Origin: Deltaproteobacteria bacterium
Lineage (GTDB): Bacteria > UBA10199 > DSSB01
Reading direction: 5' to 3'
DNA: 16,800 nucleotides
Assembly (NCBI GenBank): GCA_021414045.1
Contig: JAIOPF010000027.1
Coordinates: forward strand, 1 to 16,800
Position numbers and translations under genes: made by a program. Below are positions 4,069 to 16,800 of the stretch, in pieces. The first letter of the stretch is position 1. Every line of letters begins with the position of its first letter. Under the pieces are notes generated by a model that did not search any database, had not been told where the DNA came from, and saw only the letters and a program-made list of their open reading frames with translations.

Positions 4069-6849
4069 TTAAGTGGGTGTTGGAGATGGGTTTTTCCCGA
4101 ATTTGGGAGGGATACCGAACTGTTCGATCTTAAGATAAAGGGTACGGCGAGAGATCTTGAGCATTTGAGCCGCCTTGACTTTATTGCCACCTACCTTTTC
4201 CAGGGCATATAAAATCGCCTTTTTCTCCAGATCCGCGATTTGGGGGTCTAGTCCCCGGGACTCTGGATCTTGGAAATCCCCATTTGGAACGGCTTGCAAC
4301 TGCCGTTCGACCGAAGCCTTGGATTGTCTTAATTCTTCGAGGGACCTTTCCATTTCCTCGCGGGTCTCGGTGTGTCCCAGTGCCAGCGTGGCTTGGTCGG
4401 CCAAGGCCTCCAGCCATGGAAGGTGTTCGGCTTGAAATACCCCTTGGCGATGGCGATTTTCCAAGTAAAGCACCCCAAGGGCTCGAGACCCCGCCCGCAA
4501 AGGGACACAGAGCAAGGAGCGTAACGGCGTCGCCCGCGATGCGGCATGCGAACCGTCCTCATTTGGAGGTGCGTCATAAATAATTTGTGACGCACTTTGA
4601 CGCAGCACTTCCTCCGCGATACGGCGACCGAACCGCATCTCTTCTCGGTCCCAAATCGTCGGATCCAGGCGACGCGTGGCTCGCATCTCGAGTTGGCCTT
4701 GTTGGTCCAAGGCCACGAAGCCGCTTTCGGCATCGGTGAATCGCAGGGCCACCGTCAGCGTTTCTTCCAGCAAGGCCTGGGTGCTGCTTTGCTGCAGCAT
4801 GCGGCTTTGGAGGGAACGCCATTTTTCGAAAACGACCATGGCCCCGGACGAGCCAGAGGGTAGGGTACCGTCGGCGGTAGCGACCGCAGGTCTGGGGATC
4901 GCCTTGGCCTTGGCGATGGCTTCCAGGCCCTCTGTAATTCGCTGCTTTTTGCGATCCCGAAGAAAGCTGTCGCGATAGGGTTCGGGAACTTCGGGGAGTA
5001 ATTCGCTGAGAATTTCTTGGGCGCGGTGATAGGAAGCCTCGGCCTCCTCGAGGCGTCCTTGCAAGCGCTCGAGGTCTCCGATGTCCGTGTGGATTTGCCA
5101 GAGGATAATAGTGTCCGCACGGCCGGCGGCCTCCTCCCGGATTTTTTCGTAGGTGGCGGCGACCCATGTCGGCAGAATATTTCCCTGCGACACCGCTTGT
5201 TTCGCGCACAACCATTCCACTTGAAGGCCGTGGGGGCTTTCCCCCGCCTCGGCTTCGTATCGCTGGATTTCCCGGAGCGAGGCCTCGCGGGCTTCTTGGC
5301 GCCCTTGGGAGAACTCGAAATTGGCCCGTGCTAGCAGCGCCCGGATAATGACGGCCTTTTCGCCCAGATCCTTGGCCTGGACTAGGGCCTGACGAAGATA
5401 GTCTTCCGTTTTTTCCGGGTTGCCGCGGCCTTCTTCCGCGACGGTCATCAGATAGAGGTTGTCGGCGACCAGGGACGGCATTTCTTCTTGGCGTCCAAGG
5501 TCGAGCGAGCGAATGAGCGACCCTTCCGCCTCATGCCAACGCCCGAAATGAAGATAGAGCTGCCCGAGGCGATTTAAGATCGAGGCTTCGGTCTTGCGCT
5601 GAGTCAATTCGCGAGCCAGGTTCAGTGCGGACTGATAAAGCTGATAGGCCTTCGCCCACCGCCCTTGGTCGCCATAGAGCGCGGCGGCATTGACGGAAAA
5701 GGTCATTTCCTGATCGCGGCGCTTGGCTTCGTGAGCAAAATCCGCCGCTCTCTCGAAATGCAAGGCGGCCTGGACGAAATCCTTTTCGGCCTGACAGCTT
5801 AGTCCCTTGTAATTTTCAAACCTCGCCCTTTTGATCGCGGGTGCCTGGTTTAAGAGCTCTTCCGGTGTGGAATGGAGGAAGGTCTTTGCCTCGCGACGAC
5901 GACCCTGGCGAAAGGAAAGGTAGGCCCCTGTCAGGTAATACTCCAGGTTGGGCCGGGATTTCAGTGCAGGGTGTTCATGGAGTTTTAGTAATAAAGATTG
6001 GGCCTCGGCGAGGCGGCCGAGCTCGGACAGCAAATAAATGAGGGTCGCGAGAAAGTCAGCGACCAAGGCCGGGTTGGTCCATTGATAGACCTGGGGGATC
6101 CAGGGTTCAGCGAAGGCCAAGGCTTCTTTCTCGATGCATTGGATCACGCCGGGGGGGACGGCGCTTTCCCGCAGCATTTCAAGATCGAGGCCCCCTTTCT
6201 CCCAAGCTTCGGCACCAGGCAATTTTCCTAGAGCCATTTGGTAGAAGATCAGGCCCAAGGAGTAGAGGTCGGCTCGTGGGTCTGGTTGGTCACCCGCGAG
6301 CAGCTCCGGGGCCCAATAGGGCCTGCAGTCGGCCCAAGCTTCTTGGGGGAGATTCGGTCCTAGGGACAGGCCGAAGTCGGTTAATTTCAAATGTAGGCGA
6401 TCGGGGATTTTTTCTAGAGAATTTCCGGAAATCTTGAGGACCAACAGGCTTTCGGGTTTGAGGGCACCGTGGACGATGCCCCCCTCATGGAGTTCACCCA
6501 GGGCCCAAGCGGCTTGAACCATGAGTTGGAATACGATGCCCCACTCTTGAACCGCCGCCTCTTGGATTAAGCCCCTACCCTCCACATGCTCGGTGGAGTA
6601 AAAAAGCACCTCTCCCTCCTGGCCCCATTCGATGAGCCGGAGAAGATTGGGGTGCCGTAAAAGCTGAAGTTGGTCCCAATTTTGACGAAAGGCCTTAGGG
6701 TCGGGAGAAAATCCCTTCTGGAAGATTTTTAAGTTCAGGAGCCGTCCGGAGCTCTCGAGGTCTTTTGCTAAATAGGTAACTGCAAAAGCTCCTTGGTTTA
6801 GGATTCGAACTAGCTCGTAGCGTTGAACAATTTTTTTTTCATATTCCAT
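4069..6849 (-). CDS. Pseudokinase-TPR-GAF-Fis-HTH regulatory protein
   Basis: This 926-aa cytoplasmic regulator has a Hanks-type Ser/Thr kinase fold at about 8-270, helical TPR-like repeats at about 275-620, a GAF sensor domain at about 674-825, a short coiled coil at about 828-855 and a Fis-type helix-turn-helix at 868-912 (GGNKVKAAQMLKISRRTLYL). In the kinase domain the ATP-contacting Lys41, DFG (158-160), APE (180-182) and Asp194 are kept. The HRD motif, however, reads HGA at 127-129, and the following Asn is Ser134, so the catalytic Asp and a Mg ligand are missing; the glycine loop is also degenerate. It is probably a pseudokinase. There is no AAA+ domain, although this type of Fis HTH is usual in sigma-54 activators. 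The start at 6849 has no clear Shine-Dalgarno but lies correctly just before the glycine loop. Ligand, partner and target DNA are unknown. Confidence 0.9.
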   Translation of the reverse strand: MEYEKKIVQRYELVRILNQGAFAVTYLAKDLESSGRLLNLKIFQKGFSPDPKAFRQNWDQLQLLRHPNLLRLIEWGQEGEVLFYSTEHVEGRGLIQEAAVQEWGIVFQLMVQAAWALGELHEGGIVHGALKPESLLVLKISGNSLEKIPDRLHLKLTDFGLSLGPNLPQEAWADCRPYWAPELLAGDQPDPRADLYSLGLIFYQMALGKLPGAEAWEKGGLDLEMLRESAVPPGVIQCIEKEALAFAEPWIPQVYQWTNPALVADFLATLIYLLSELGRLAEAQSLLLKLHEHPALKSRPNLEYYLTGAYLSFRQGRRREAKTFLHSTPEELLNQAPAIKRARFENYKGLSCQAEKDFVQAALHFERAADFAHEAKRRDQEMTFSVNAAALYGDQGRWAKAYQLYQSALNLARELTQRKTEASILNRLGQLYLHFGRWHEAEGSLIRSLDLGRQEEMPSLVADNLYLMTVAEEGRGNPEKTEDYLRQALVQAKDLGEKAVIIRALLARANFEFSQGRQEAREASLREIQRYEAEAGESPHGLQVEWLCAKQAVSQGNILPTWVAATYEKIREEAAGRADTIILWQIHTDIGDLERLQGRLEEAEASYHRAQEILSELLPEVPEPYRDSFLRDRKKQRITEGLEAIAKAKAIPRPAVATADGTLPSGSSGAMVVFEKWRSLQSRMLQQSSTQALLEETLTVALRFTDAESGFVALDQQGQLEMRATRRLDPTIWDREEMRFGRRIAEEVLRQSASQIIYDAPPNEDGSHAASRATPLRSLLCVPLRAGSRALGVLYLENRHRQGVFQAEHLPWLEALADQATLALGHTETREEMERSLEELRQSKASVERQLQAVPNGDFQDPESRGLDPQIADLEKKAILYALEKVGGNKVKAAQMLKISRRTLYLKIEQFGIPPKFGKNPSPTPT

Positions 6850-7306: not shown

Positions 7307-7323
7307 TTGGCAGGGCCTTTGCT
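7307..7323 (+). promoter_or_regulatory. Sigma-54 promoter, first of three
   Basis: TTGGCAGGGCCTTTGCT has GG at 7309-7310 and GC at 7321-7322, the exact GG-N10-GC spacing of the -24/-12 RpoN promoter, with flanking TTGGCA and TTTGCT both matching consensus. The predicted transcription start is about 7334, which would run to the terminator at 7590-7626. Confidence 0.75.
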
Positions 7324-7335
7324 TATGTATTTGGT

Positions 7336-7566
7336 ATGGTACGACAAGCAAAGCAAAGCATCGCACAAGAGAAGACCTGGGAAGGAAGTCCCAACGAGTT
7401 TTTGGATGGAATCCATCTCGTTGGCGAGGAGGCACCTGCCTTTTCGGGAGATCCCTTGCTGCGGTCGGCCCTAGGTGAAGAACTACGGAGGATTCAGGCC
7501 CGCGCGACCAAAGGGGACAATATGGCCCGACGTTATGTCGGCAGTTGGCGCAAGGTGCTTGGTTAA
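7336..7566 (+). CDS. Small hypothetical protein downstream of a sigma-54 promoter
   Basis: The frame codes for 76 aa, unrecognised, mostly hydrophilic, with no signal peptide or membrane helix and a basic C-terminus (MARRYVGSWRKVLG). Its second half uses GC-rich third positions like neighbouring genes, which supports real coding. It ends 23 bp before a strong terminator and lies right after a sigma-54 promoter, so it appears to be the only gene of its transcript. The predicted transcript start at about 7334 leaves a leader of only 2 nt before this ATG, and an in-frame stop at 7300-7302 rules out a longer form. It is either leaderless or starts further in, for example at the TTG at 7402. The transcript could also act as RNA. 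Function unknown. Confidence 0.55.
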   Translation: MVRQAKQSIAQEKTWEGSPNEFLDGIHLVGEEAPAFSGDPLLRSALGEELRRIQARATKGDNMARRYVGSWRKVLG

Positions 7567-7589
7567 TTTTCTTTCAAGTGTTTGGGAGT

Positions 7590-7626
7590 GGGCCGGTCTG
7601 CTAGGGGTAGACCGGCCCTTTTTTTT
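7590..7626 (+). terminator. Strong rho-independent terminator
   Basis: A perfect 10-bp stem, GGGCCGGTCT (7590-7599) with AGACCGGCCC (7609-7618), has a 9-nt loop and is followed by eight T. It ends the unit that starts at the sigma-54 promoter at 7307. Confidence 0.93.
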
Positions 7627-7848
7627 CTCTCCTGAAATTTGTGACGCAGAATTCACCTAACTTAGCGCGTCAAAAAAATCATAAGTCCTTACTCATGATC
7701 CTTTCTGTGGATAAGTATTTTTAGCCCTTTCGCATCTGATTCTTGTGAAATTTTCCTCGAACTTTTAAGATGCCCAAAACCAAAAAACAGACATCGATTG
7801 TTATTTTCAGGCATCCGAATCGACGGCGATTCCGTCGACAAAAACATC
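7627..7848. other. Intergenic leader before the acyltransferase gene
   Basis: The stretch contains an inverted repeat TGACGC (7642-7647) / GCGTCA (7667-7672) followed by seven A. No convincing promoter or Shine-Dalgarno is seen. The acyltransferase frame is open from 7699, with a TTG at 7798 as the only earlier usual start codon. Confidence 0.35.
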
Positions 7849-8763
7849 ATGAATTCTCTCGCTCACACCCTGGAAGAACTCCTTAAAGCGCCCCGAAAAA
7901 CCCTGGAATCCCTATTGCCAATGGGTTCCATCGGAGAAATTCCGCAGCAGCTGAAGAAAATATTTTCCTTCGATTACGAAGATAAACCCTTGGAAGAAAA
8001 GTTCTTCGCGGCGCACCGGCATTGGCTCAAACTGCTGCATGATTATTACTTCCGCGTCGAACATGCCGGGCATCTTGCCGAAGTTACGGAATTGGCCAAA
8101 CGCGAAAAGGTGATCCTGATCAGCAACCACGCCAACACCCTCGAGGCAGCGCTCATTTGTTATTATTTTTATTCCAGGCATCTGGGCTTGGTGCGGACTC
8201 TCGTTTATAAAGAAGCCTTCCGTTTACCTTTGGTGAGGGAGTTTTTCCGCAGCGGCCAATGCATCCCGATCAGCGTCGCGGCGGGCAAGGAGGCATTGAA
8301 GAAGGACCATATCCTGCTCTTCCCGGAGGGAATGGATTTCATCAAGCATTATATCAAACGAGATTACGTGGTGAAATTCCACAAAGGCTTCCTGAACATC
8401 GCGAAGGAGTACTTGCAGGAGAACCCCGGCAAAAAGGTCCACATTGTGCCGGTGGGCCATGACGGCATCGATTATACGATCAAGTTTTGGGTCATCAATC
8501 ACCCCTTTCTCGTCGAAAAATTCATTAAGCCCTTCCTGCATTACCCCTATTTAGTCATTCCGAAGGCTCCTTTGGTTTTTCCGAGCAAAGCGATTTTCAA
8601 TTGGGGCCGGCCTCGGGCCGTAGGATTGGAAGAACTCAAGAGCGAGAAGTCCCTCATCAAGCTCACCCATGAGTTTCGTGGCGATATCGTCCGGCTTCGA
8701 CACCGCGCCAGGCAGCTACGCAAGCTGAGCAAACAAACCGAGTCATCGCCGGGCGAGGTTTAG
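7849..8763 (+). CDS. PlsC/LPLAT-type phospholipid acyltransferase-like protein
   Basis: This is a likely membrane-associated glycerolipid acyltransferase of the PlsC superfamily, which transfers acyl chains to lysophosphatidate or related lipids. Counted from the ATG at 7849 it has 304 aa. Block I is SNHANTLEAA at 92-101 with His94, and block III is LLFPEGMDF at 156-164 (FPEG at 158-161). VHIVPVGHDG at 197-206 fits the later strand. The acidic residue of the His-x4-Asp motif is Glu99 here. The region before 80 is helical and extends beyond a minimal PlsC domain. The C-terminus is basic (RLRHRARQLRKLSK). Neither the ATG at 7849 nor the TTG at 7798 (17 codons longer) has a clear ribosome site, so the start is uncertain. 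Substrate cannot be told from sequence. Confidence 0.85.
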   Translation: MNSLAHTLEELLKAPRKTLESLLPMGSIGEIPQQLKKIFSFDYEDKPLEEKFFAAHRHWLKLLHDYYFRVEHAGHLAEVTELAKREKVILISNHANTLEAALICYYFYSRHLGLVRTLVYKEAFRLPLVREFFRSGQCIPISVAAGKEALKKDHILLFPEGMDFIKHYIKRDYVVKFHKGFLNIAKEYLQENPGKKVHIVPVGHDGIDYTIKFWVINHPFLVEKFIKPFLHYPYLVIPKAPLVFPSKAIFNWGRPRAVGLEELKSEKSLIKLTHEFRGDIVRLRHRARQLRKLSKQTESSPGEV

Positions 8764-8797
8764 CCCCAAACTCCATCATATCCCCTCGAAACGATGG

Positions 8798-8817
8798 GAG
8801 ATTTTAGTTGAAATCTC
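8798..8817. repeat. Inverted repeat overlapping a -35 box, possible operator
   Basis: GAGATTT (8798-8804) and AAATCTC (8811-8817) are exact 7-bp arms with a 6-nt spacer. They cover the TTGAAA at 8808-8813 of the promoter for the PuuD-like gene. No T-run follows, so it is not a terminator. Confidence 0.45.
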
Positions 8818-8835
8818 AGTGAATCCCCTTAACAT
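8808..8835 (+). promoter_or_regulatory. Sigma-70-type promoter of the PuuD-like gene
   Basis: TTGAAA (8808-8813) and TAACAT (8830-8835) are separated by 16 bp. A start near 8842 would leave a leader of about 40 nt with AAGGAG at 8867-8872 before the ATG at 8880. Confidence 0.5.
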
Positions 8836-8879
8836 GCGGGAAATTCCACGTGCCTTGAGCCTTTATAAGGAGAGCTGTC

Positions 8880-9644
8880 ATGCAAACCACGGAAATCCTC
8901 CAGTCGGTTTTTCGCTGGATCCACGTCGTCGCTGGTATCTTGTGGATCGGCCTGCTGTATTTTTTCAATTTCGTGAATGGTCCCTTCGCCGCCACCATGG
9001 ACGGCGAAACCAAGAAAAAAGTCGTTCCCCAACTGATGCCCCGGGCGCTTTTTTGGTTTCGTTGGGGTGCGGCCTGGACCTGGGTCACGGGCGTGATTCT
9101 GGTCATGCTGGTGTTTTACCATGGCGGCGCTCTTTTTGAGGGAGCGACCCAAAACTGGAGCCTTCCGTCCTTCCTGATGATCGCCATCACCTTCCTGGGA
9201 GTTTTCGTCTATGACGCGATCATGAAAACCCTCGGTGCCAAAAATCTCAAGGCGGCGGTGGTGCTCTTTTTCCTGATCATCTCCGCATTGGTCTATTTCC
9301 AAGGGACCTGGGCCGGTTGGAGCTTTCGCGGTTATAATATCCATGTCGGCGTCCTATTCGGCACCATCATGGCTTTCAACGTTTGGTTTCGCATCTGGCC
9401 TTCGCAACGCAAGATCATCACCGCGGTTCGTGACGGTCAGGCTCCTGATCCGGCCGTGGTCGCCTTGGCGGGTTCGCGATCTCGACAAAACACTTATATG
9501 TCCATTCCCTTGGTCTGGACGATGCTCAACTCCCACAATAGCTGGGCGGCGAGCTGGTGGTGGTCGGTTTTGGCGGCTATCGCCTTGGGTTGGTTTGGCT
9601 GCAGCCATCTGCTGAAGAAGGCTCCGAAGGTGCAGGGGTTTTAA
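8880..9644 (+). CDS. PuuD-like urate hydroxylase membrane domain protein
   Basis: A six-helix inner-membrane protein of 254 aa that matches the membrane domain of the PuuD urate hydroxylase family. Hydrophobic segments lie at about 12-32, 60-80, 97-115, 124-144, 152-172 and 224-244. Family-like blocks are WIHVVAGILWIGLLYFFNFV near the N-terminus, NVWFRIWPSQRKII at 167-180 and SRQNTYMSIPLVWTMLNSHN at 201-220. His15, His155 and His219 are candidate functional residues. Full PuuD proteins carry a C-terminal cytochrome c domain with CxxCH. This one ends after the membrane part and its only Cys (241) is not in such a motif, so an electron acceptor would have to be separate. AAGGAG with 7-nt spacing supports the start. 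It has its own promoter and terminator. No purine-catabolism genes are adjacent, so urate as substrate is unproven. Confidence 0.85.
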   Translation: MQTTEILQSVFRWIHVVAGILWIGLLYFFNFVNGPFAATMDGETKKKVVPQLMPRALFWFRWGAAWTWVTGVILVMLVFYHGGALFEGATQNWSLPSFLMIAITFLGVFVYDAIMKTLGAKNLKAAVVLFFLIISALVYFQGTWAGWSFRGYNIHVGVLFGTIMAFNVWFRIWPSQRKIITAVRDGQAPDPAVVALAGSRSRQNTYMSIPLVWTMLNSHNSWAASWWWSVLAAIALGWFGCSHLLKKAPKVQGF

Positions 9645-9678
9645 GCTAGTCTTAAGTTGAGCAGAATATGAATTGTCA

Positions 9679-9714
9679 GGGCGATCTACGATAACGTAGA
9701 TCGCCCTTTTTTTT
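9679..9714 (+). terminator. Strong rho-independent terminator after the PuuD-like gene
   Basis: A perfect 12-bp stem, GGGCGATCTACG (9679-9690) with CGTAGATCGCCC (9695-9706), has an ATAA loop and is followed by eight T. Confidence 0.96.
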
Positions 9715-9730
9715 GAGGTTATCGGTTGGC

Positions 9731-9745
9731 CCTGCTTCAAGCAGG
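9731..9745. repeat. Short palindrome in the intergenic region
   Basis: CCTGCTT-C-AAGCAGG has exact 7-bp arms around one base. It lies about 110 bp upstream of the -24 box of the second sigma-54 promoter, a distance at which activator-binding sites often occur. The activator role is inference. Confidence 0.4.
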
Positions 9746-9854
9746 TTAATTGACCTTGCCCCGTCCCCATCCCTCTCCTCGCTATAAAACTTACAAAAAT
9801 AACATTTTGCAAAGGTGGAAAAATTGTAACTCCTTGAAATCCCTTATCCTGAAC

Positions 9855-9871
9855 TTGGCAATCCATTTGCT
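9855..9871 (+). promoter_or_regulatory. Sigma-54 promoter, second of three
   Basis: TTGGCAATCCATTTGCT has GG at 9857-9858 and GC at 9869-9870, exact GG-N10-GC. The predicted start is about 9882, giving a 75-nt leader with hairpin CCAGC/GCTGG (9886-9901) and AGGAGG before the secreted-protein gene. Confidence 0.78.
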
Positions 9872-9885
9872 CCTAATCCTCAGAA

Positions 9886-9901
9886 CCAGCCATTTCGCTG
9901 G
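9886..9901 (+). other. 5'-leader hairpin of the thrombospondin-repeat transcript
   Basis: CCAGC (9886-9890) pairs with GCTGG (9897-9901) around a 6-nt loop, 4 nt after the predicted sigma-54 start. It may stabilise the 5' end. Confidence 0.35.
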
Positions 9902-9956
9902 AATTCCAAAAGGAGAATCTTAGAAGAAAAAACAATTTAGGAAATAGGAGGATCGT

Positions 9957-10910
9957 ATGGAAACCAAAAAAGGACTGAAGTCCGCCATCTTTTCGATGGT
10001 AATGGGGTATTTCCTTCTAGGAAATGCCGCCTTCGCTCAAAGGATTCCTATATCCGGGGCGCTGTTCAAACCAACGTCAATTCTTGGGACGAATTCGGCA
10101 TTACCGACGAGCCGGTCTTTGAGTCCGACTGCCACTAACCCAATACAAATCCATCCCAAGGCCGAATTGTCCTCGAGCATCGCCGACAATGGGAACCCCA
10201 TCCAAATTCTTTCGGGTGGCGGCGGCAAATTAATTCCTCCAACGGAGTTGGGAGATGTTCAGGTCAAGCCGCAATTTCTAATAGATAACCCTAAACAATT
10301 TGCGGACCTTTTATCGAAGGTCGATTGGGACGAAGACGGCGTCGGGGAGAATGACAATTGCCGGTCGGTGCCAAATCCTTCCCAAGGCGATGTCGATGGC
10401 GACGGCATTGGAGATGCCTGCGACAATTGTCCCTTGCAAAATAATCCCAAACAAAAAAATTGGAACCAAAATAAATACGGGGACGCCTGCGAGGATTCCG
10501 ACGGTGATTACGCTTTCGATGACGTCGACAATTGCATCACCGTACCCAACAAAGACCAAGCCGATCTCAACGGGAACGGGACGGGGGATGCCTGCGATGC
10601 GGAGTGCGCGGAGGCGCCATCGTTGGCAATAAATGAAATTTCCGCATCGTGCAAATATCATAAGGCGGATGAATGCGATAAGATCGTGGGTGAAGGAACC
10701 TGTGACCCTGCATATTCGGAAGGACAGTTAGTAGTCACAAGCTTTCGTGTCATGGTGCCTTGGCAAACCCAAAACGCAAGTGACCTAAATATCACCTGTA
10801 ATCAGCATCGAGTGGTCGGAGGTTCCGTCTCCGTGAAGAGTCATGTAAAAGCTCTGAACTATTCGGAAGATTCCGGGGTGCTGGATACCAATGGTATTGT
10901 TGATCTATAA
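9957..10910 (+). CDS. Secreted thrombospondin type-3 repeat protein, cut short by an in-frame TAA
   Basis: The 317-aa product has a signal peptide at 1-27 (hydrophobic core 10-22, AFA cleavage site) and is exported. Residues 28-120 form a Ser/Thr/Pro-containing linker. Residues 123-214 carry Asp-rich, Cys-containing thrombospondin type-3 repeats such as DWDEDGVGENDNC, DVDGDGIGDACDNC and DLNGNGTGDACD, a fold that binds Ca2+. Residues 216-317 form a Cys-containing domain I do not recognise. The TAA at 10908 stops the frame, but the same frame stays open and protein-like for 54 more codons to a TGA at 11073-11075, so the gene is probably interrupted or read through. AGGAGG is 5 nt before the ATG, a sigma-54 promoter lies upstream and a terminator follows at 11111. 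Confidence 0.85.
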   Translation: METKKGLKSAIFSMVMGYFLLGNAAFAQRIPISGALFKPTSILGTNSALPTSRSLSPTATNPIQIHPKAELSSSIADNGNPIQILSGGGGKLIPPTELGDVQVKPQFLIDNPKQFADLLSKVDWDEDGVGENDNCRSVPNPSQGDVDGDGIGDACDNCPLQNNPKQKNWNQNKYGDACEDSDGDYAFDDVDNCITVPNKDQADLNGNGTGDACDAECAEAPSLAINEISASCKYHKADECDKIVGEGTCDPAYSEGQLVVTSFRVMVPWQTQNASDLNITCNQHRVVGGSVSVKSHVKALNYSEDSGVLDTNGIVDL

Positions 10911-11075
10911 AATGCCTATGACGTTGATTGGGCCGATGCCGCAAAAGCATTAACAGGTAATGTTGGGCAAGGGGGTAGCACCAGGGATTATCCCGACCGC
11001 AGTGAGTGCGAACTCACCGCCCAAGGAGTTTGCGGTAAAACCGCCACCGTGAATTTCTCGGTTTGGTGTCCTTGA
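10911..11075 (+). pseudogene. Severed C-terminal end of the thrombospondin-repeat protein
   Basis: In the same frame as the gene upstream, after its TAA, 54 codons read NAYDVDWADAAKALTGN and on to NFSVWCP before TGA. The piece has Cys pairs (ECELTAQGVC, VWCP) like the domain before the stop and no start codon with a ribosome site of its own. One base change at 10908-10910 would restore a 372-codon gene. Confidence 0.7.
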
Positions 11076-11110
11076 TCCCAGTTGGCGTGAGAGTCGCTTA
11101 TAAATCTAAC

Positions 11111-11156
11111 AGGTGGTGAAAGGGCTTATTAGGCGCTCTTTCACCACTTGTTTTTT
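11111..11156 (+). terminator. Rho-independent terminator after the thrombospondin-repeat gene
   Basis: AGGTGGTGAAAG (11111-11122) pairs with CTTTCACCACTT (11138-11149) with one G-T pair and a 15-nt loop, then G and six T. It follows the outer TGA at 11075 by 35 bp, which fits the longer version of the gene. Confidence 0.85.
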
Positions 11157-11166
11157 GGGGCCAAAA

Positions 11167-11280
11167 ATGAGGAACAAAAGGACGAATCACCGCGCGGAAA
11201 TCCGCCGGGCCCTCTGGCAAATTTGTGCCGAGACCAAGCGTTGGCCACGAGATCTGAAATTCCTCTTTTACAATTTTTAG
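11167..11280 (+). CDS. Candidate 37-aa basic small protein or gene remnant
   Basis: The ATG-started frame opens 37 codons (MRNKRTNHRAEIRRALWQIC and onward), rich in Arg/Lys. The middle is clearly more GC-rich than the AT-rich DNA on its right, as in a coding fragment. No Shine-Dalgarno is seen, and the frame starts just past a terminator, so it may be a remnant or chance. No family recognised. Confidence 0.22.
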   Translation: MRNKRTNHRAEIRRALWQICAETKRWPRDLKFLFYNF

Positions 11281-11297
11281 ACAATTAACAATTTTTA
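11270..11297. repeat. Direct repeat of ACAATTTTTA
   Basis: The 10-mer ACAATTTTTA occurs at 11270-11279 and 11288-11297, 18 bp apart, about 90-110 bp upstream of the third sigma-54 promoter. It could be an activator site, or simply low-complexity AT-rich DNA. Confidence 0.3.
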
Positions 11298-11379
11298 CGA
11301 ATAAAAATTTCAAAAACCAAAAACATTTTCCTGAATTCCTGTAACTAATTGAATTTAATAAATATTTAAAAAGGGTCGA

Positions 11380-11396
11380 TTGGCACTTCCCTTGCT
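11380..11396 (+). promoter_or_regulatory. Sigma-54 promoter, third of three
   Basis: TTGGCACTTCCCTTGCT has GG at 11382-11383 and GC at 11394-11395, exact GG-N10-GC, and is nearly the textbook TGGCAC/TTGC consensus. The predicted start is about 11407. The sequence after it (TTGCTTAATGTATT) closely resembles that of the promoter at 7307. Confidence 0.85.
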
Positions 11397-11406
11397 TAAT
11401 GTATTC

Positions 11407-11490
11407 GTAGAAGAGATGCCAAAAGGCATCCATCAAATAGACATCACGTAAATCCCATAACTGGCCGCCTTAACCGGGCGGCCTTTTTTT
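11407..11490 (+). ncRNA. Candidate sigma-54-dependent small RNA, about 84 nt
   Basis: A sigma-54 promoter with predicted start near 11407 and an intrinsic terminator ending at 11490 bracket only about 84 nt. Near the 5' end is a perfect hairpin GATGCC-AAAA-GGCATC (11415-11430), followed by a single-stranded, A-rich middle (about 11431-11460) and the terminator stem, a typical trans-acting sRNA layout. The only ORF is an 11-codon ATG frame at 11416-11451 without a good ribosome site. No known sRNA family is recognised. It could also be the leader of a longer unit, but the terminator argues against that. Confidence 0.6.
11463..11490 (+). terminator. Rho-independent terminator of the candidate sRNA
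   Basis: GGCCGCC (11463-11469) pairs with GGCGGCC (11477-11483) around a 7-nt loop, followed by seven T. Confidence 0.92.
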
Positions 11491-11651: not shown

Positions 11652-11656
11652 ACGTG

Positions 11657-14600
11657 ATGTCGCAGGGCGAGGTGTCAATCTCGCCGGGGGTAGACATGGC
11701 CGACTTGCGTTTGGGCTCCAGGAAAATTTTATCTCTCGAGTCGCCCATCGGAGAGCGATCCGCGACCGAAGCTGGCGAAAGCGCGCGTCCGGATTCCAAC
11801 TTCGAGGACCTGCGTCAGGCTCTCGGCGCCTTGGTGCCGGCCTTGTTACGCGATGCCTCGGGTGGATTGGACCTTTCGCGGATCAAGGCCAAGAGCTTTT
11901 CGGAATTCAAGACTTTCCTTCAAGATCAAGCCGCGCTGAACGACGGTTTCAGCTTTCGCAATCCCTACGAGACATTGCTTCAGAATGAAAAATACGCGCC
12001 TCTGCTGAAGACGCTTTATCGGCGCATCGGGGGTTCTAAAGAAACTTCGACCTGCGACGCCGACCTTTTGCTGAAGTTCCAGGCGGAATTGGTCGAGATC
12101 GATGCGGATCGGTTCGTCCAAAGGCATTTCTCCTCCCAAGAAGGTCGCCGAAAATTAAGAAGCTACTTGGGAGACGCCCGTCATTTTCGCAAGGAAGCGC
12201 GCAGCGAACTGGTCAAAGCCATAGCCAGGGCCTCGGAACAAAATAAAACGGCGGCCTTCTACCAATTGGATGGGGTTACGAATCAGATCAGCCTATGGAA
12301 TTATTTCAACTGGTTCGTGACGGATGAGGAGTTGAACAAGGCGGTTCTGGCCGCCGAAGACCTGTTAAGCGCGGCGGATTATGTTTTTTCAGAACAGGAG
12401 AGGATCGCGGCAAAGGAAAAAAGCGATTCCAGCCATCGCTCGCTCTTGTCCGGAGAATACTCGGGAAGAGAGCTGACGGATGAGGATTGGAAGAAGTACG
12501 AAGCCTTGGCGGCTTCTCCCCAAAAGGGCCCGGTGGGAATTTTTCAAAATCAACTGGCCAACCTTTGGCTACTTACGGCCAACAACTCCAACTGGAAAAG
12601 CGAAGAGCAGGGTTCCCGACCCGAGGGACGCGGCCATATTCTCAGGCAAGTCGAGGATCTGCTGAGGCGAACCGAGACGATCCGAAGCGAAAAGGATTTT
12701 GAACGGCTTAACGAGCGTATCCAGGATTTTCTCAATGGCGAGATTCAAGGCTTGGGCCATGTCGAAGAATCCGTCCTGGACCGAACGCTGCGGGAATTGT
12801 GGGCTGAAGCGAAACACCAAACGATAGGCTGCGGATTGGAGGAGCTGTTCGAAGGACTTGGGGCCCAAAGACGCTCCGCCTATGAGGACCTGCGGCGTAG
12901 TTCGGAGGAATACAAGCATGCCATGGCCATGGGAGAGAAGATCCGCCTTTCAGGGCCTTCCGACGAAGGCCTGAAAGATTTGTCCTCGGCCCTGGAAGCG
13001 ACCAAGCTCCAGCTCTGGCATGGTTATAAGCAACATAAGGCACTCTCCCGGGGAATCTCCAACCTCGCCGGTGTCTTCGGTACCGGGGACATCGCGGAAA
13101 TCAGGAAGGCCAATGCCTTCATCGACCGGACCCTGCAAAAGCTCGGCAAGGACGGCCTTTCCAACGACCAGCGGATTCAGCTCTTGTCGGAATTGCATGA
13201 GTCCTTGCAAAAGAATGGCTTGCTCTACCGCGCCTTCGAAGCCGCCGAGATGGACGGCACCGAGCAACTCATTGGCCTCGCGCAGACGATTGTGGTCACC
13301 GCCGGAATGGCGATGGCAACCAAAGGAGCGGGGACCTTGATCCAAGTCGACCTGACCCTCATGCGCACAGCTATGGGAGCGCGAGCCTTTAGAATGGCGC
13401 AGGGTTTCGGGTTGGGGATGCAGATGACCACGGCGGAGAATGTCCTCTCTGTCGCGTCTGGAGAAGTTCGCCAGGGTCCGGAAACGGTAGGAAAGTGGTT
13501 CAAAGACGCCGTCGCCACAGGAACCTCGATGGCTCTTTCCGGAGCGCTGCATCTCAATCACACAACGAAAGAAAGCGTGATCAAAAACCTCTGGGCGCGA
13601 TACACCGTGAACGGCATCCAGGGAGCCCGCAATTTCCTGGTCGATACGGGGATGGAGGCTATAGAGGAACTGGTCGACCAGTATACTCGTCAAGTCCTTG
13701 AGGGGAAGAACGAGGCATTATCATGGCAAGAGCTGCACGAGATCGTCGCTCTCAGTTTGGCCGGTGGCGGTTTAAAAGTTGGCGCCGTCGCCGAAGCCAT
13801 AAGTGGCGGCGGGATCCCCGCTTCGGGAAAAGTCCGGAGACCTTCAACTCAATGGACCCAACCCTGGTTTCAAGCTTTGACGGCTCCCATGTGGACGATG
13901 ATGGGGGCGGGGAGTGTCGGCCCCTTGGGTCTTTTAGGAAAGCGATCAGGCGCGGCGTCATTAATTGAACGCTTAAAGGGTTTGCAGCAGGATTGGATGA
14001 AAAGGCTGGAAGGAAAGGGAGCCCGCCTAAAACAATGGCCTTTAGCGGCTCTTCTTTCCGGTTGGGGAGAAGATGTCCTCTGGCTCGACCGATACTTGAA
14101 GGAACATCCAGGGGAAGAGCCTCATTTGACGCAAGTGATATTGCCGCTGCCCAATCAAAGGATTTCCGCCGAGGATGGGGAGTATCATGACCTTTCTTTC
14201 ATGGAGACGACCCTCATCGCCCTTGACGGGCAGATCGGAGTCCCCTTCAGACACGGCGAATTCGATTCCCTGCATTATCTGTTTCCTCCGGAAATACTCC
14301 TGGCTTCGGCGAATGCCATTCACGGTACCCAAGCTTTTGAATTGAGGGAGGTCTCCCATTTGCTTTCCTTGGGAGAAATGCGGGGAATGATGTCCCAAAA
14401 CGCGAGGCCTCTGCTGATGGTCAAAGCTCCGCAGGATATTCACGGGTATCGTGGCGTGCACCCCTATTTGGCGGCCCTTCATGATGTCTATCACTGGATT
14501 AGGGTGAGCGGGGTTCCTTCGGAGCAAAGGACAAGGATGCTGGATCTCTTCGATGCCTTGGAAAGGGCGTCTCGCCGCGTCTCCGACCAGGAAGAGTTGA

Positions 14601-16800
14601 ATTTTTTTCGCGAGAAATTATTGGATGGCCATTGGAGGCAAATACCGACTTTGGAGGAGCTTGGAGCCGCGGCGATGGCGGAGAGAGAAGGGCTGGTATC
14701 GAGACCGCCCACTTCAGCGATTTTCGAAGGCTTAACTTCGCAATTAAGGAACGAACTCTACAATTTTTTTCATCCATCCCAATTCACCCGAATATCCCGT
14801 GAACCGGTAGTTATTTCGGGCAGTTTCTTCGCCTCGGGTAAGATGGGTTCGTTCGGGAACGTCTCCTGGGTCCCCGAAACCGAATACTTTTTCGAAAAGA
14901 AGCTGGGCGATGCCATGCCGGAGTTGATGTTACGCCCTGAAAAGGTGGCTGCCGAAGCGAAGTTGTCGGAGGAACTTCACGGACACCTGTTGATTGAGGC
15001 CCGAAAATTTGTTGAAACCGATCTTGGCAATTGGTGGAGGAAGTTACCGAGGATCCCAAGGCTGGAAAAAGAGAAAATCGTCTCCTCGGTCTATGACCGC
15101 CTAATTGCCAGCGCAAGGGTGGGTTCTCGCTTTTCGTCGATGCTCGAACATTCCGGGCATAACATCTATTATTACCAGCTGGGCCTCCACCACGCCGATC
15201 CTCATTGTCTTATCCTCTCGCGTCTTCACGGGATGATGCTGAATTTCGCTCGATGGGGAAAGATGGGCCTCGAACCGGAATGGTTCCCGGGATTTGAGGA
15301 AGGCGAGGATTTTCATGAAGAGTTCCCGCTCCTGCCCAAGCATCTTCGGGAACGGGATATTCCCGGAACCGAGGGCCGGTTATTTTTGGAAATCTCCCCC
15401 GGGATGTTTGAGAGCGCCCATGGCGTCGATTACCAACTCAGTTGGAAGGGAAAACTGCTGGGATCCGAGATCGAGGAAATCGTCCCGATCATGACGGCGG
15501 GTTTTCGCCGGGTGGAGGACGGGTACGCCATCGAAAAGATCCAGGGTGGAATCTACACCGATCTCGAGGGAAAGACGGCGCATCGACCTATCGGAGAACT
15601 GCGTGTGCGCGCTCCTTCTGGAAAAATAAAGAACCTTCCAGGTTTTGTGATGTCGACTCTGAAGGCCCGGGATCTGAAGGTATGGCTTCTGGAAACATTG
15701 ATGTCCGATTTGCGCCAAGAAGACCCGAAGGCGATTTTTTACTTTCGCAAGGGATCGCATTTGGCGTGGACTCTCCATAAACTCCGCGATCCTCGAGATC
15801 CAGGAAGGAATCTGAGAGATTCCGTGTCGAGTCTTCGTGGCGAAGACGTATTGGGCCTGCTTCGCAGTCGCGCGGGACAAATTCTCCAGGCGCGGCAGGC
15901 ATTGGCCAAGACAGGGGAAGGGCTAGTGCCGGAAGGACGGGCCTTAAAAGAGCTGCGCGGGGAAGGAGAAAAGGTCTCTCAGGCGCTGAAGGTTTTGTCA
16001 GGCTATGCGAAAACGGCCATGACTTTGAATTTTGAGGAAAAGGAAGGCCCCTACTACCAGCTCCCTTCCGATGGCATGTCGCGGCATCCCGTCCATATTC
16101 CCCAAACCCAACCGATTTTGGAGGAATTGCAAAAATGGCTCAGTGAATTCCGCGCCTCGGGTTTGCTTGCCGCGTTTGTCGGCTTGTCCACCTTGCTCCA
16201 ATCGAATATCGCGGAGGCCTACTCGGCCGCGCCAGCGATATTCGATCCCGCGGATATGGCGGAATGGATGGTTAAGGCTGGAGGCTTCCTGGCAAGCGGG
16301 GCGGCTTCCTACCTTGGTTGGAAATTTTTTTCGAACAAAAAGAAAGCCGTGGAAGCCCGACTTACCGAGGCAGGTTGGAATCAGCCGCAACGGGAAGCCT
16401 TTCTATCCCTTTATGCAAAAAAATCCGGATTTCTGACCGACTTGAATCCCAAGCTGTTGGAGGCACTGGCTGAGTTGAAGCGGCTCGATTTCAAAGCTGA
16501 AAACCAGTTTATCCTCTTGATCGGCATGCTGAATAAGGGGTCGCAAAACCCAATAAGCAACCTACAAAACTTAACCGAAATTCTCCGGTTTTTAGAAAGA
16601 TTGGAACCTCCCCAGGGAGAAATGGAAGGATTGCTTTGCTCCATGCTTCCCACGGTGGGACATCGGAATTTTCCAGTTTTTGAAGACCTTCTGAAAGCGG
16701 TTCGAGGAATGTCCAGCTGGGGAATGACCTGGTCGAAGATCGTCGACGTTCTGGAGCAAGGAAGGGGAAACGCCTCCTACTCGAATTATTTTTTGGATGG
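11657..16800 (+). CDS. Giant protein of unknown function, 3' end outside the window
   Basis: One reading frame stays open for 1,714 codons and runs off the window; codon use is uniform and typical. I recognise no family. The N-terminus (MSQGEVSISPGVDMADLRLG) has no signal peptide. Residues 1-530 are hydrophilic and strongly helical. Residues about 535-610 are Gly/Ala/Met-rich and hydrophobic. Residues about 700-715 have a Gly-rich stretch (SLAGGGLKVGAVAEAI). A His-rich part has HDVYH at 942-946, and H-SGH/LHHADPH clusters around 1165-1185. Residues about 1503-1560 hold two hydrophobic segments around EAYSAAPAIFDP, followed by a basic FFSNKKK. This resembles large effector or toxin-like proteins with membrane-active segments, but that is only an impression. 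Starts: ATG 11657 (no ribosome site) or ATG 11696 (GGGGGT 4 nt before it); a stop at 11618 limits the frame. Confidence 0.85.
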   Translation, partial: MSQGEVSISPGVDMADLRLGSRKILSLESPIGERSATEAGESARPDSNFEDLRQALGALVPALLRDASGGLDLSRIKAKSFSEFKTFLQDQAALNDGFSFRNPYETLLQNEKYAPLLKTLYRRIGGSKETSTCDADLLLKFQAELVEIDADRFVQRHFSSQEGRRKLRSYLGDARHFRKEARSELVKAIARASEQNKTAAFYQLDGVTNQISLWNYFNWFVTDEELNKAVLAAEDLLSAADYVFSEQERIAAKEKSDSSHRSLLSGEYSGRELTDEDWKKYEALAASPQKGPVGIFQNQLANLWLLTANNSNWKSEEQGSRPEGRGHILRQVEDLLRRTETIRSEKDFERLNERIQDFLNGEIQGLGHVEESVLDRTLRELWAEAKHQTIGCGLEELFEGLGAQRRSAYEDLRRSSEEYKHAMAMGEKIRLSGPSDEGLKDLSSALEATKLQLWHGYKQHKALSRGISNLAGVFGTGDIAEIRKANAFIDRTLQKLGKDGLSNDQRIQLLSELHESLQKNGLLYRAFEAAEMDGTEQLIGLAQTIVVTAGMAMATKGAGTLIQVDLTLMRTAMGARAFRMAQGFGLGMQMTTAENVLSVASGEVRQGPETVGKWFKDAVATGTSMALSGALHLNHTTKESVIKNLWARYTVNGIQGARNFLVDTGMEAIEELVDQYTRQVLEGKNEALSWQELHEIVALSLAGGGLKVGAVAEAISGGGIPASGKVRRPSTQWTQPWFQALTAPMWTMMGAGSVGPLGLLGKRSGAASLIERLKGLQQDWMKRLEGKGARLKQWPLAALLSGWGEDVLWLDRYLKEHPGEEPHLTQVILPLPNQRISAEDGEYHDLSFMETTLIALDGQIGVPFRHGEFDSLHYLFPPEILLASANAIHGTQAFELREVSHLLSLGEMRGMMSQNARPLLMVKAPQDIHGYRGVHPYLAALHDVYHWIRVSGVPSEQRTRMLDLFDALERASRRVSDQEELNFFREKLLDGHWRQIPTLEELGAAAMAEREGLVSRPPTSAIFEGLTSQLRNELYNFFHPSQFTRISREPVVISGSFFASGKMGSFGNVSWVPETEYFFEKKLGDAMPELMLRPEKVAAEAKLSEELHGHLLIEARKFVETDLGNWWRKLPRIPRLEKEKIVSSVYDRLIASARVGSRFSSMLEHSGHNIYYYQLGLHHADPHCLILSRLHGMMLNFARWGKMGLEPEWFPGFEEGEDFHEEFPLLPKHLRERDIPGTEGRLFLEISPGMFESAHGVDYQLSWKGKLLGSEIEEIVPIMTAGFRRVEDGYAIEKIQGGIYTDLEGKTAHRPIGELRVRAPSGKIKNLPGFVMSTLKARDLKVWLLETLMSDLRQEDPKAIFYFRKGSHLAWTLHKLRDPRDPGRNLRDSVSSLRGEDVLGLLRSRAGQILQARQALAKTGEGLVPEGRALKELRGEGEKVSQALKVLSGYAKTAMTLNFEEKEGPYYQLPSDGMSRHPVHIPQTQPILEELQKWLSEFRASGLLAAFVGLSTLLQSNIAEAYSAAPAIFDPADMAEWMVKAGGFLASGAASYLGWKFFSNKKKAVEARLTEAGWNQPQREAFLSLYAKKSGFLTDLNPKLLEALAELKRLDFKAENQFILLIGMLNKGSQNPISNLQNLTEILRFLERLEPPQGEMEGLLCSMLPTVGHRNFPVFEDLLKAVRGMSSWGMTWSKIVDVLEQGRGNASYSNYFLD

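Follow-up and report, generated by a model that had tools for sequence, protein, structure and literature searches.

A 16,800-nucleotide stretch of an uncultured deltaproteobacterial genome (the window: bases 1-16800 of contig C107, JAIOPF010000027.1, in the Deltaproteobacteria bacterium assembly GCA_021414045.1) carries, within 4.1 kb of its plus strand, three predicted promoters of the sigma-54 (RpoN) type, each followed by a different transcription unit. An earlier reading, made from the sequence only, took this grouping for a local RpoN regulon of small or accessory products. The question is whether the three units indeed share an activator and a function or belong to a wider set, and what each of them makes. 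We consider it probable that the three sites form part of a large RpoN set dispersed over the genome, that this bacterium employs many activators rather than one local one, and that the three units differ from each other. The points that deserve attention are the layout of the first unit, whose mRNA should be leaderless, and the recurrence of this layout across the class of uncultured deltaproteobacteria.

Predicted sigma-54 promoters in the window and across the genome

The three sites were found where the sequence-only reading had placed them, on the plus strand and outside the main genes. They read TTGGCA-GGGCC-TTTGCT (16-mer 7308-7323), TTGGCA-ATCCA-TTTGCT (9856-9871) and TTGGCA-CTTCC-CTTGCT (11381-11396), and all three have the GG-N10-GC spacing of -24/-12 elements. 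The last one overlaps a 112-amino acid (aa) open reading frame on the minus strand, which is taken as spurious.

7308..7323, plus strand: predicted sigma-54 promoter 1, predicted +1 at 7334; matrix score 19.3, rank 23 of 63 from the weakest
9856..9871, plus strand: predicted sigma-54 promoter 2, predicted +1 at 9882; score 15.2, rank 3 of 63, the weakest of the three
11381..11396, plus strand: predicted sigma-54 promoter 3, predicted +1 at 11407; score 25.4, rank 59 of 63, the strongest of the three

A loose pattern is uninformative on its own, because a scan of the window allowing up to 2 mismatches yields 6 matches compared to 6.2 expected by chance. We rely on a promoter matrix built from the genomic sites other than these three, 60 in number; the scores given above are leave-one-out values. 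At a score of at least 12, this matrix retrieves exactly the three sites, with none on the minus strand and 0.45 matches expected from shuffled sequence.

The assembly (2.6 Mb in 385 contigs, estimated completeness 84%) encodes RpoN, as the earlier reading presupposed, with the DNA-binding domain PF04552 on contig C294 (E-value 8.1e-65). The pattern TGGCA-N6-TTGCW occurs 63 times in the assembly versus 9 times for the reversed control, and a handful of the 63 matches are probably due to chance. The same comparison in the 7 nearest relatives gives 75/3, 64/5, 71/3, 49/5, 30/2, 24/1 and 52/7; this excess in all eight genomes places the sites in a large RpoN promoter set, of which the three sites of the window look like real members. 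The first site is kept at the equivalent place in both same-genus genomes searched (G001, TGGCAGCCGTCTTGCT; G002, TGGCAATCCATTTGCT). For site 9856, no orthologous locus on which to check conservation was found in the relatives, and the same holds for the RNA behind site 11381. Among the targets of the 63 sites, 25 were scanned, and 16 of these proteins have no Pfam match above the cut-off.

Activator domains are abundant as well. The assembly holds 29 matches to the activator domain PF00158 (22 strong, 2 partial on C41 and C23, and 5 weaker), many of which sit within open frames of 1,100-1,700 aa. With the 5 weakest excluded beforehand, 13 of the 63 sites lie no more than 5 kb from one of the 24 remaining domains, compared to at most 6.1 expected (P 0.01), and 10 of the 24 domains have a site within that distance. 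Computation thus shows the sites, their excess across the genome, rpoN, the activator domains and the conservation of the first site, whereas transcription from the sites is inferred.

A small conserved protein gene with a start codon close to the predicted transcription start

The first promoter is followed by a small gene and its terminator.

7336..7566, plus strand: gene for a 76-aa conserved orphan protein, ATG at predicted +3; homologues in G001, G002 and P0002
7590..7618, plus strand: intrinsic terminator of unit 1; in G001 the stem is retained, with paired changes

The sequence-only reading had left open whether this unit is a protein gene or an RNA. Comparison with the homologues indicates a conserved gene that encodes a protein and speaks against an RNA. 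The product is 75 aa long in G001 and G002, and the homologue P0002 is identical to the 76-aa product in length and start. Between the window and G001, 47 residues are identical and substitutions are distributed 19/12/39 over the three codon positions; between G001 and G002, 11 codons have changed synonymously and 1 nonsynonymously. The third-position excess and an N-terminus conserved across the four sequences point to a genuine coding frame from the AUG. The product has no Pfam match. Downstream of the unit, an acyltransferase gene is retained in G001 and G002.

Counted from the promoter element, the ATG lies at predicted +3 in the window and at +7 in G001 and G002. This leaves no space for a Shine-Dalgarno sequence, so that the mRNA is expected to be leaderless. 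RpoN polymerase would start 2 nt (6 nt in the two relatives) before the ATG, and the ribosome would load at the 5' end of the mRNA without a Shine-Dalgarno interaction.

Predicted leaderless starts behind sigma-54 sites across the class

The same layout recurs in related genomes. We compared the number of site patterns followed by an ATG at +1..+4 with the number followed by an ATG at +8..+11 in 60 genomes, 46 of the class and 14 outside it. Within the class, the counts are 388 and 137 (Wilcoxon 5e-9), with the former higher in 45 genomes, lower in none and tied in one; outside it, they are 17 and 14. In the 8 genomes of the order, for which the total number of sites is known (428), 59 ATGs fall at +1..+4 and 19 at +8..+11, where equal base use would give about 27. 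In the window's own genome, 12 ATGs fall at +1..+4 of the 63 sites; a frame of at least 60 codons begins at 7 of these and at no ATG at +5..+14.

Among the class loci listed (30 of 405 and 30 of 151 matches), frames of at least 60 codons start from 12 of 20 ATGs at +1..+4 versus 6 of 23 at +8..+11, and in G004, with 49 sites, from 4 of 6 ATGs at +1..+4. In the 133 class matches listed, the ATG is at +4 in 52, at +3 in 40, at +1 in 29 and at +2 in 12. We inspected 15 distinct long frames of this kind, and 10 have no nearby alternative start led by a Shine-Dalgarno sequence (one has only a distant TTG). Recognizable domains begin soon after some of these ATGs, a kinase from residue 11 and Y1 transposases from residues 13 and 16; 4 of 10 proteins scanned from leaderless-looking starts have no Pfam match. 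Y1-type transposase genes from two genera of one family (L211, L212) have predicted leaderless starts behind a sigma-54-like site.

On this evidence, it seems somewhat more plausible than otherwise that the class systematically starts many RpoN-dependent mRNAs at, or no more than 3 nt from, the start codon, and that the conserved 76-aa gene at 7336 is an example. Activator-gated sigma-54 transcription would then be coupled to translation without a leader.

A secreted TSP3-repeat protein gene behind the second site

The second site precedes a gene for a secreted TSP3-repeat protein, as had been read from the sequence; relative to a homologue, its frame is interrupted by a stop.

9957..10910, plus strand: gene for a secreted TSP3-repeat protein, AGGAGG before the ATG, in-frame stop at 10908-10910
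10911..11075, plus strand: open continuation of the TSP3 frame past the stop, matching the C-terminus of P0010
11108..11152 (about), plus strand: terminator hairpin of unit 2, then a U-run; 18 pairs, -28.1 kcal/mol, z -5.6

A protein search identified P0010, a full-length TSP3 homologue of 383 aa with 59% identity over the first part. Beyond the stop, the frame of the window matches residues 333-383 of P0010 with 72% identity over 53 columns. Since P0010 continues past the position of the stop, the copy in the window is cut short, by mutation or by assembly. No full-length TSP3 orthologue was found in the relatives, where the search matched only the repeat region. From site 9856, the predicted leader is 75 nt long, and this unit would yield an ordinary, Shine-Dalgarno-led mRNA for the secreted protein, truncated in this assembly.

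The TSP3 gene adjoins the very large gene described below in C107 and C138. The two were considered as a standing pair, but a crude motif scan found no TSP3 repeats in open reading frames beside the copies of the large gene retrieved from other genomes, and the idea was rejected.

A predicted short terminated RNA before a very large gene

The strongest of the three promoters stands before a short terminated unit, in agreement with the earlier description of an RNA of about 84 nt, and a very large gene follows.

11407..11490, plus strand: predicted short RNA, about 84 nt to the end of the U-run, with a 5' hairpin, a single-stranded middle and a terminator at 11463-11483; -27.2 kcal/mol, z -4.2
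11654..16800, plus strand: 5' part of a very large protein gene that begins at 11654, 11657 or 11696 and extends beyond the window; 1715-aa open frame in the window

With this terminator, the expectation that each of the three units ends in a terminator of its own holds throughout. The RNA has a stable fold, and its matches in Rfam are below the cut-off (sroB 24.9 vs 44 bits, isrD 17.4 vs 37). When E-values up to 1 were allowed, a homology search found matches in 42 of the 60 genomes, the window's own among them. The strongest non-self match (E-value 4.5e-4) spans 27 bases of promoter sequence; the others are all short and are treated as chance. No relative covering the RNA was found in the 60 genomes. 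Because it has neither a conserved sequence nor an Rfam family, we do not file it in any RNA family.

The large gene has 4 further copies in its own assembly (C184, C127, C57 and C138); counting that assembly, 11 of 60 genomes contain matches to it. It has no Pfam match at E 0.01. Among named records, relatives of it were found at six loci from three isolates, all metagenome-assembled genomes labelled 'Deltaproteobacteria bacterium'. The proteins of this family share a related N-terminal part, with open frames of up to 6454 aa among relatives and AAA domains further on in one copy. A site stands directly upstream of a copy in C184 and in contig C36 of G002, and a site plus terminator before a copy in C107 and C127. 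More generally, a terminator follows within 120 nt of the +1 at 6 of the 63 sites of this genome, compared to 18 of 1029 control windows.

Because sites stand before other copies of the large gene, with or without a terminator, we mildly favour the RNA as a conditional leader of the large gene: a strong RpoN promoter would produce a terminated RNA of about 84 nt, and expression of the gene would require read-through. What had been described as a short RNA may thus be either a free RNA or a terminated leader.

The neighbouring regulator

A regulatory gene adjoins the three units on their 5' side.

4069..6849, minus strand: gene for a kinase-TPR-GAF-Fis regulator without a sigma-54 AAA+ domain

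This protein was considered as the activator of the three sites and ruled out, since it has no AAA+ domain; it is not an activator by itself. It contrasts with the activator encoded on C118, which is a kinase-TPR-GAF-AAA+ fusion as far as the retrieved stretch reaches.

Competing explanations

Three sites on one strand in so short a space, next to a kinase-GAF-Fis regulator, are what would be expected of a local RpoN regulon in which a single nearby activator controls all three units and these serve one function, and sites do cluster somewhat in the assembly as a whole: adjacent pairs within 4,090 bases number 11 versus 5.9 expected (P = 0.024), and triples within that span 2 (C107 and C247) versus 0.30 expected (P(>=2) = 0.046), in calculations that ignore contig ends. 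This clustering is weak. When the 63 sites are placed at random, again ignoring contig ends, a triple within 4,090 bases arises somewhere in 24% of trials, and the density of sites in the window is not far above the genomic background; on the strength of this simulation and the genome-wide counts, we reject the local regulon, which appears highly improbable. The lack of an AAA+ domain in the adjoining regulator also argues against it, as do the absence from C107 of any of the assembly's 29 PF00158 matches, the absence of an inverted repeat common to the three sites within about 275 bases upstream of each, and the fact that in G001 and G002 another gene, not the kinase, lies 5' of the 76-aa unit. 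Membership in the dispersed set remains the preferred explanation. Site 9856 might be a chance match, with the TSP3 gene transcribed from another promoter, an option that we hold to be doubtful: it is the third weakest of the 63 sites, the base after TGGCA is an unusual A (A or G occurs there in 6 of 63, a number near half of the 9 reversed-control matches), and no orthologue was found on which to check its conservation. Yet only 0.15 matrix matches with a score of at least 14 are expected per window, the site is intergenic, on the same strand and 85 nt before a gene with AGGAGG, and the TSP3 gene of C138 likewise lies behind a site.

Other observations, too, weigh against parts of our interpretation. 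For the 76-aa gene, the changed codons between the window and G001 comprise 24 synonymous and 28 nonsynonymous ones, so that the coding case for this pair rests on the codon-position bias. Among the 15 distinct leaderless-looking frames inspected, 5 have a nearby in-frame start led by a Shine-Dalgarno sequence, and in G002, where 18 of 64 sites were inspected, a frame of 60 codons starts from none of the 3 ATGs at +1..+4. The excess of ATGs at these positions might instead reflect a base preference at the transcription start, given that C directly precedes the ATG in 72 of the 133 class matches listed and that some of the ATGs open no long frame. We regard such a preference as an unlikely account of the excess in view of the difference in frame length among the class loci listed, the domains or signal-peptide-like stretches that begin right after several such ATGs, and the coding constraint on the 76-aa frame, all of which fit leaderless translation. 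The third unit is more evenly balanced. A strong site (score of at least 20) lies within 100 nt upstream in only 2 of 15 distinct large-gene loci from relatives and named records, with weaker sites at or near the start in 3 and none there in the others; terminators just after the +1 were found at 0 of 49 sites in G004 and 1 of 17 in G002. A free regulatory RNA unrelated to the large gene, resembling the sigma-54-driven Pxr of Myxococcus (PMC5568312), is a serious contender that we place slightly behind the leader. It would account for the stable two-hairpin fold and for the recurrence of terminators close to the +1 in this genome; moreover, just before the kinase-activator gene, a stretch of about 50 nt belonging to a terminated sigma-54 leader RNA is nearly identical in C118 (L085) and contig C10 of G002 (L301), whereas the flanks have diverged. 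That no relative covering the RNA of the window was found in the 60 genomes speaks against it, as do the sites that would drive copies of the large gene directly in C184 and in G002.

Target proteins and other loci

The N-termini of the targets differ from those of control proteins in composition (31 versus 68 proteins): residues S, T, P, N and Q make up 34% of positions 2-30 in targets and 26.5% in controls (P 0.002), and hydropathy shows no difference (P 0.65). This composition gives a hint of a type III effector regulon. Four targets (L008, L065, L067 and L073) have tyrosine- and acid-rich N-terminal stretches, YYADAY or similar.

In this assembly, an SctV-like type III export gene (L125, on C56) is divided between two overlapping frames. 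Both pieces receive higher scores from SctV models than from FlhA models, and both stay below the full-length cut-offs. Two TPR or TPR-like genes whose products have similar N-termini (L083 and L088, on C28 and C74) have a GGCGCACACCC-like stretch in common in their leaders. Of these leaders, that on C28 was scanned, and it has no Rfam match. Elsewhere in L083 (5245-5327, minus strand) there is a c-di-GMP-I riboswitch match of 37.5 bits versus a cut-off of 35.

Comparison with known systems

Large sigma-54 regulons, leaderless mRNAs and a sigma-54-driven small RNA beside a regulator gene are each already known. Many sigma-54 activators have been reported for Myxococcota and Desulfobacteria (PMC12316311). 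The present genome resembles bacterial sigma-54 regulons in its -24/-12 elements, rpoN, many AAA+ activators and dispersed targets; it differs in the large share of scanned targets without a Pfam match and in the sizeable share of starts that look leaderless. In Sinorhizobium meliloti, 171 leaderless start sites are reported to have been mapped (PMC3616915), and in Deinococcus-Thermus, leaderless mRNAs are described as common, next to the -10 region (PMC12340547). The putative leaderless mRNAs considered here share with these the AUG at the 5' end and the lack of space for a Shine-Dalgarno sequence. Unlike them, the peak found here lies behind -24/-12 elements, and none was seen behind sigma-70-like -10 hexamers among 224 open reading frames of the same genome, a comparison of low power.

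Pxr of Myxococcus xanthus is described as a small multi-hairpin RNA whose sigma-54 promoter lies next to the gene for a sigma-54 regulator (PMC5568312). The predicted RNA of the third unit resembles it as a small RNA with hairpins behind a sigma-54 site, and Rfam gave no match above the cut-off; it precedes a very large gene, however, whereas it is the C118 RNA that stands before an activator gene. For Chlamydia trachomatis, a secretion-linked sigma-54 regulon that includes type III effectors has been reported (PMC7482065), and the SctV-like gene and the polar N-termini of targets in this genome are reminiscent of it, a likeness that amounts to a compositional hint. Among the papers listed for leaderless starts together with sigma-54 or RpoN in the open PMC library, none deals with leaderless sigma-54 mRNAs as a class, which is no proof of their absence in print.

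Implications

Sigma-54 promoters are usually pictured as giving rise to mRNAs that carry a normal leader. If a visible share of these promoters in a lineage stands only 10-13 nt upstream of the AUG, enhancer-dependent transcription would there be linked to translation without a leader. The layout of site and ATG also helps to place start codons and to recognize small orphan genes, like that for the 76-aa protein, in the genomes of bacteria that cannot be cultured. If the coupling is real, translation of leaderless RpoN targets could be tuned via the state of the ribosome, through 70S or initiation-factor dependence, providing these bacteria with a second gate beyond the activator.

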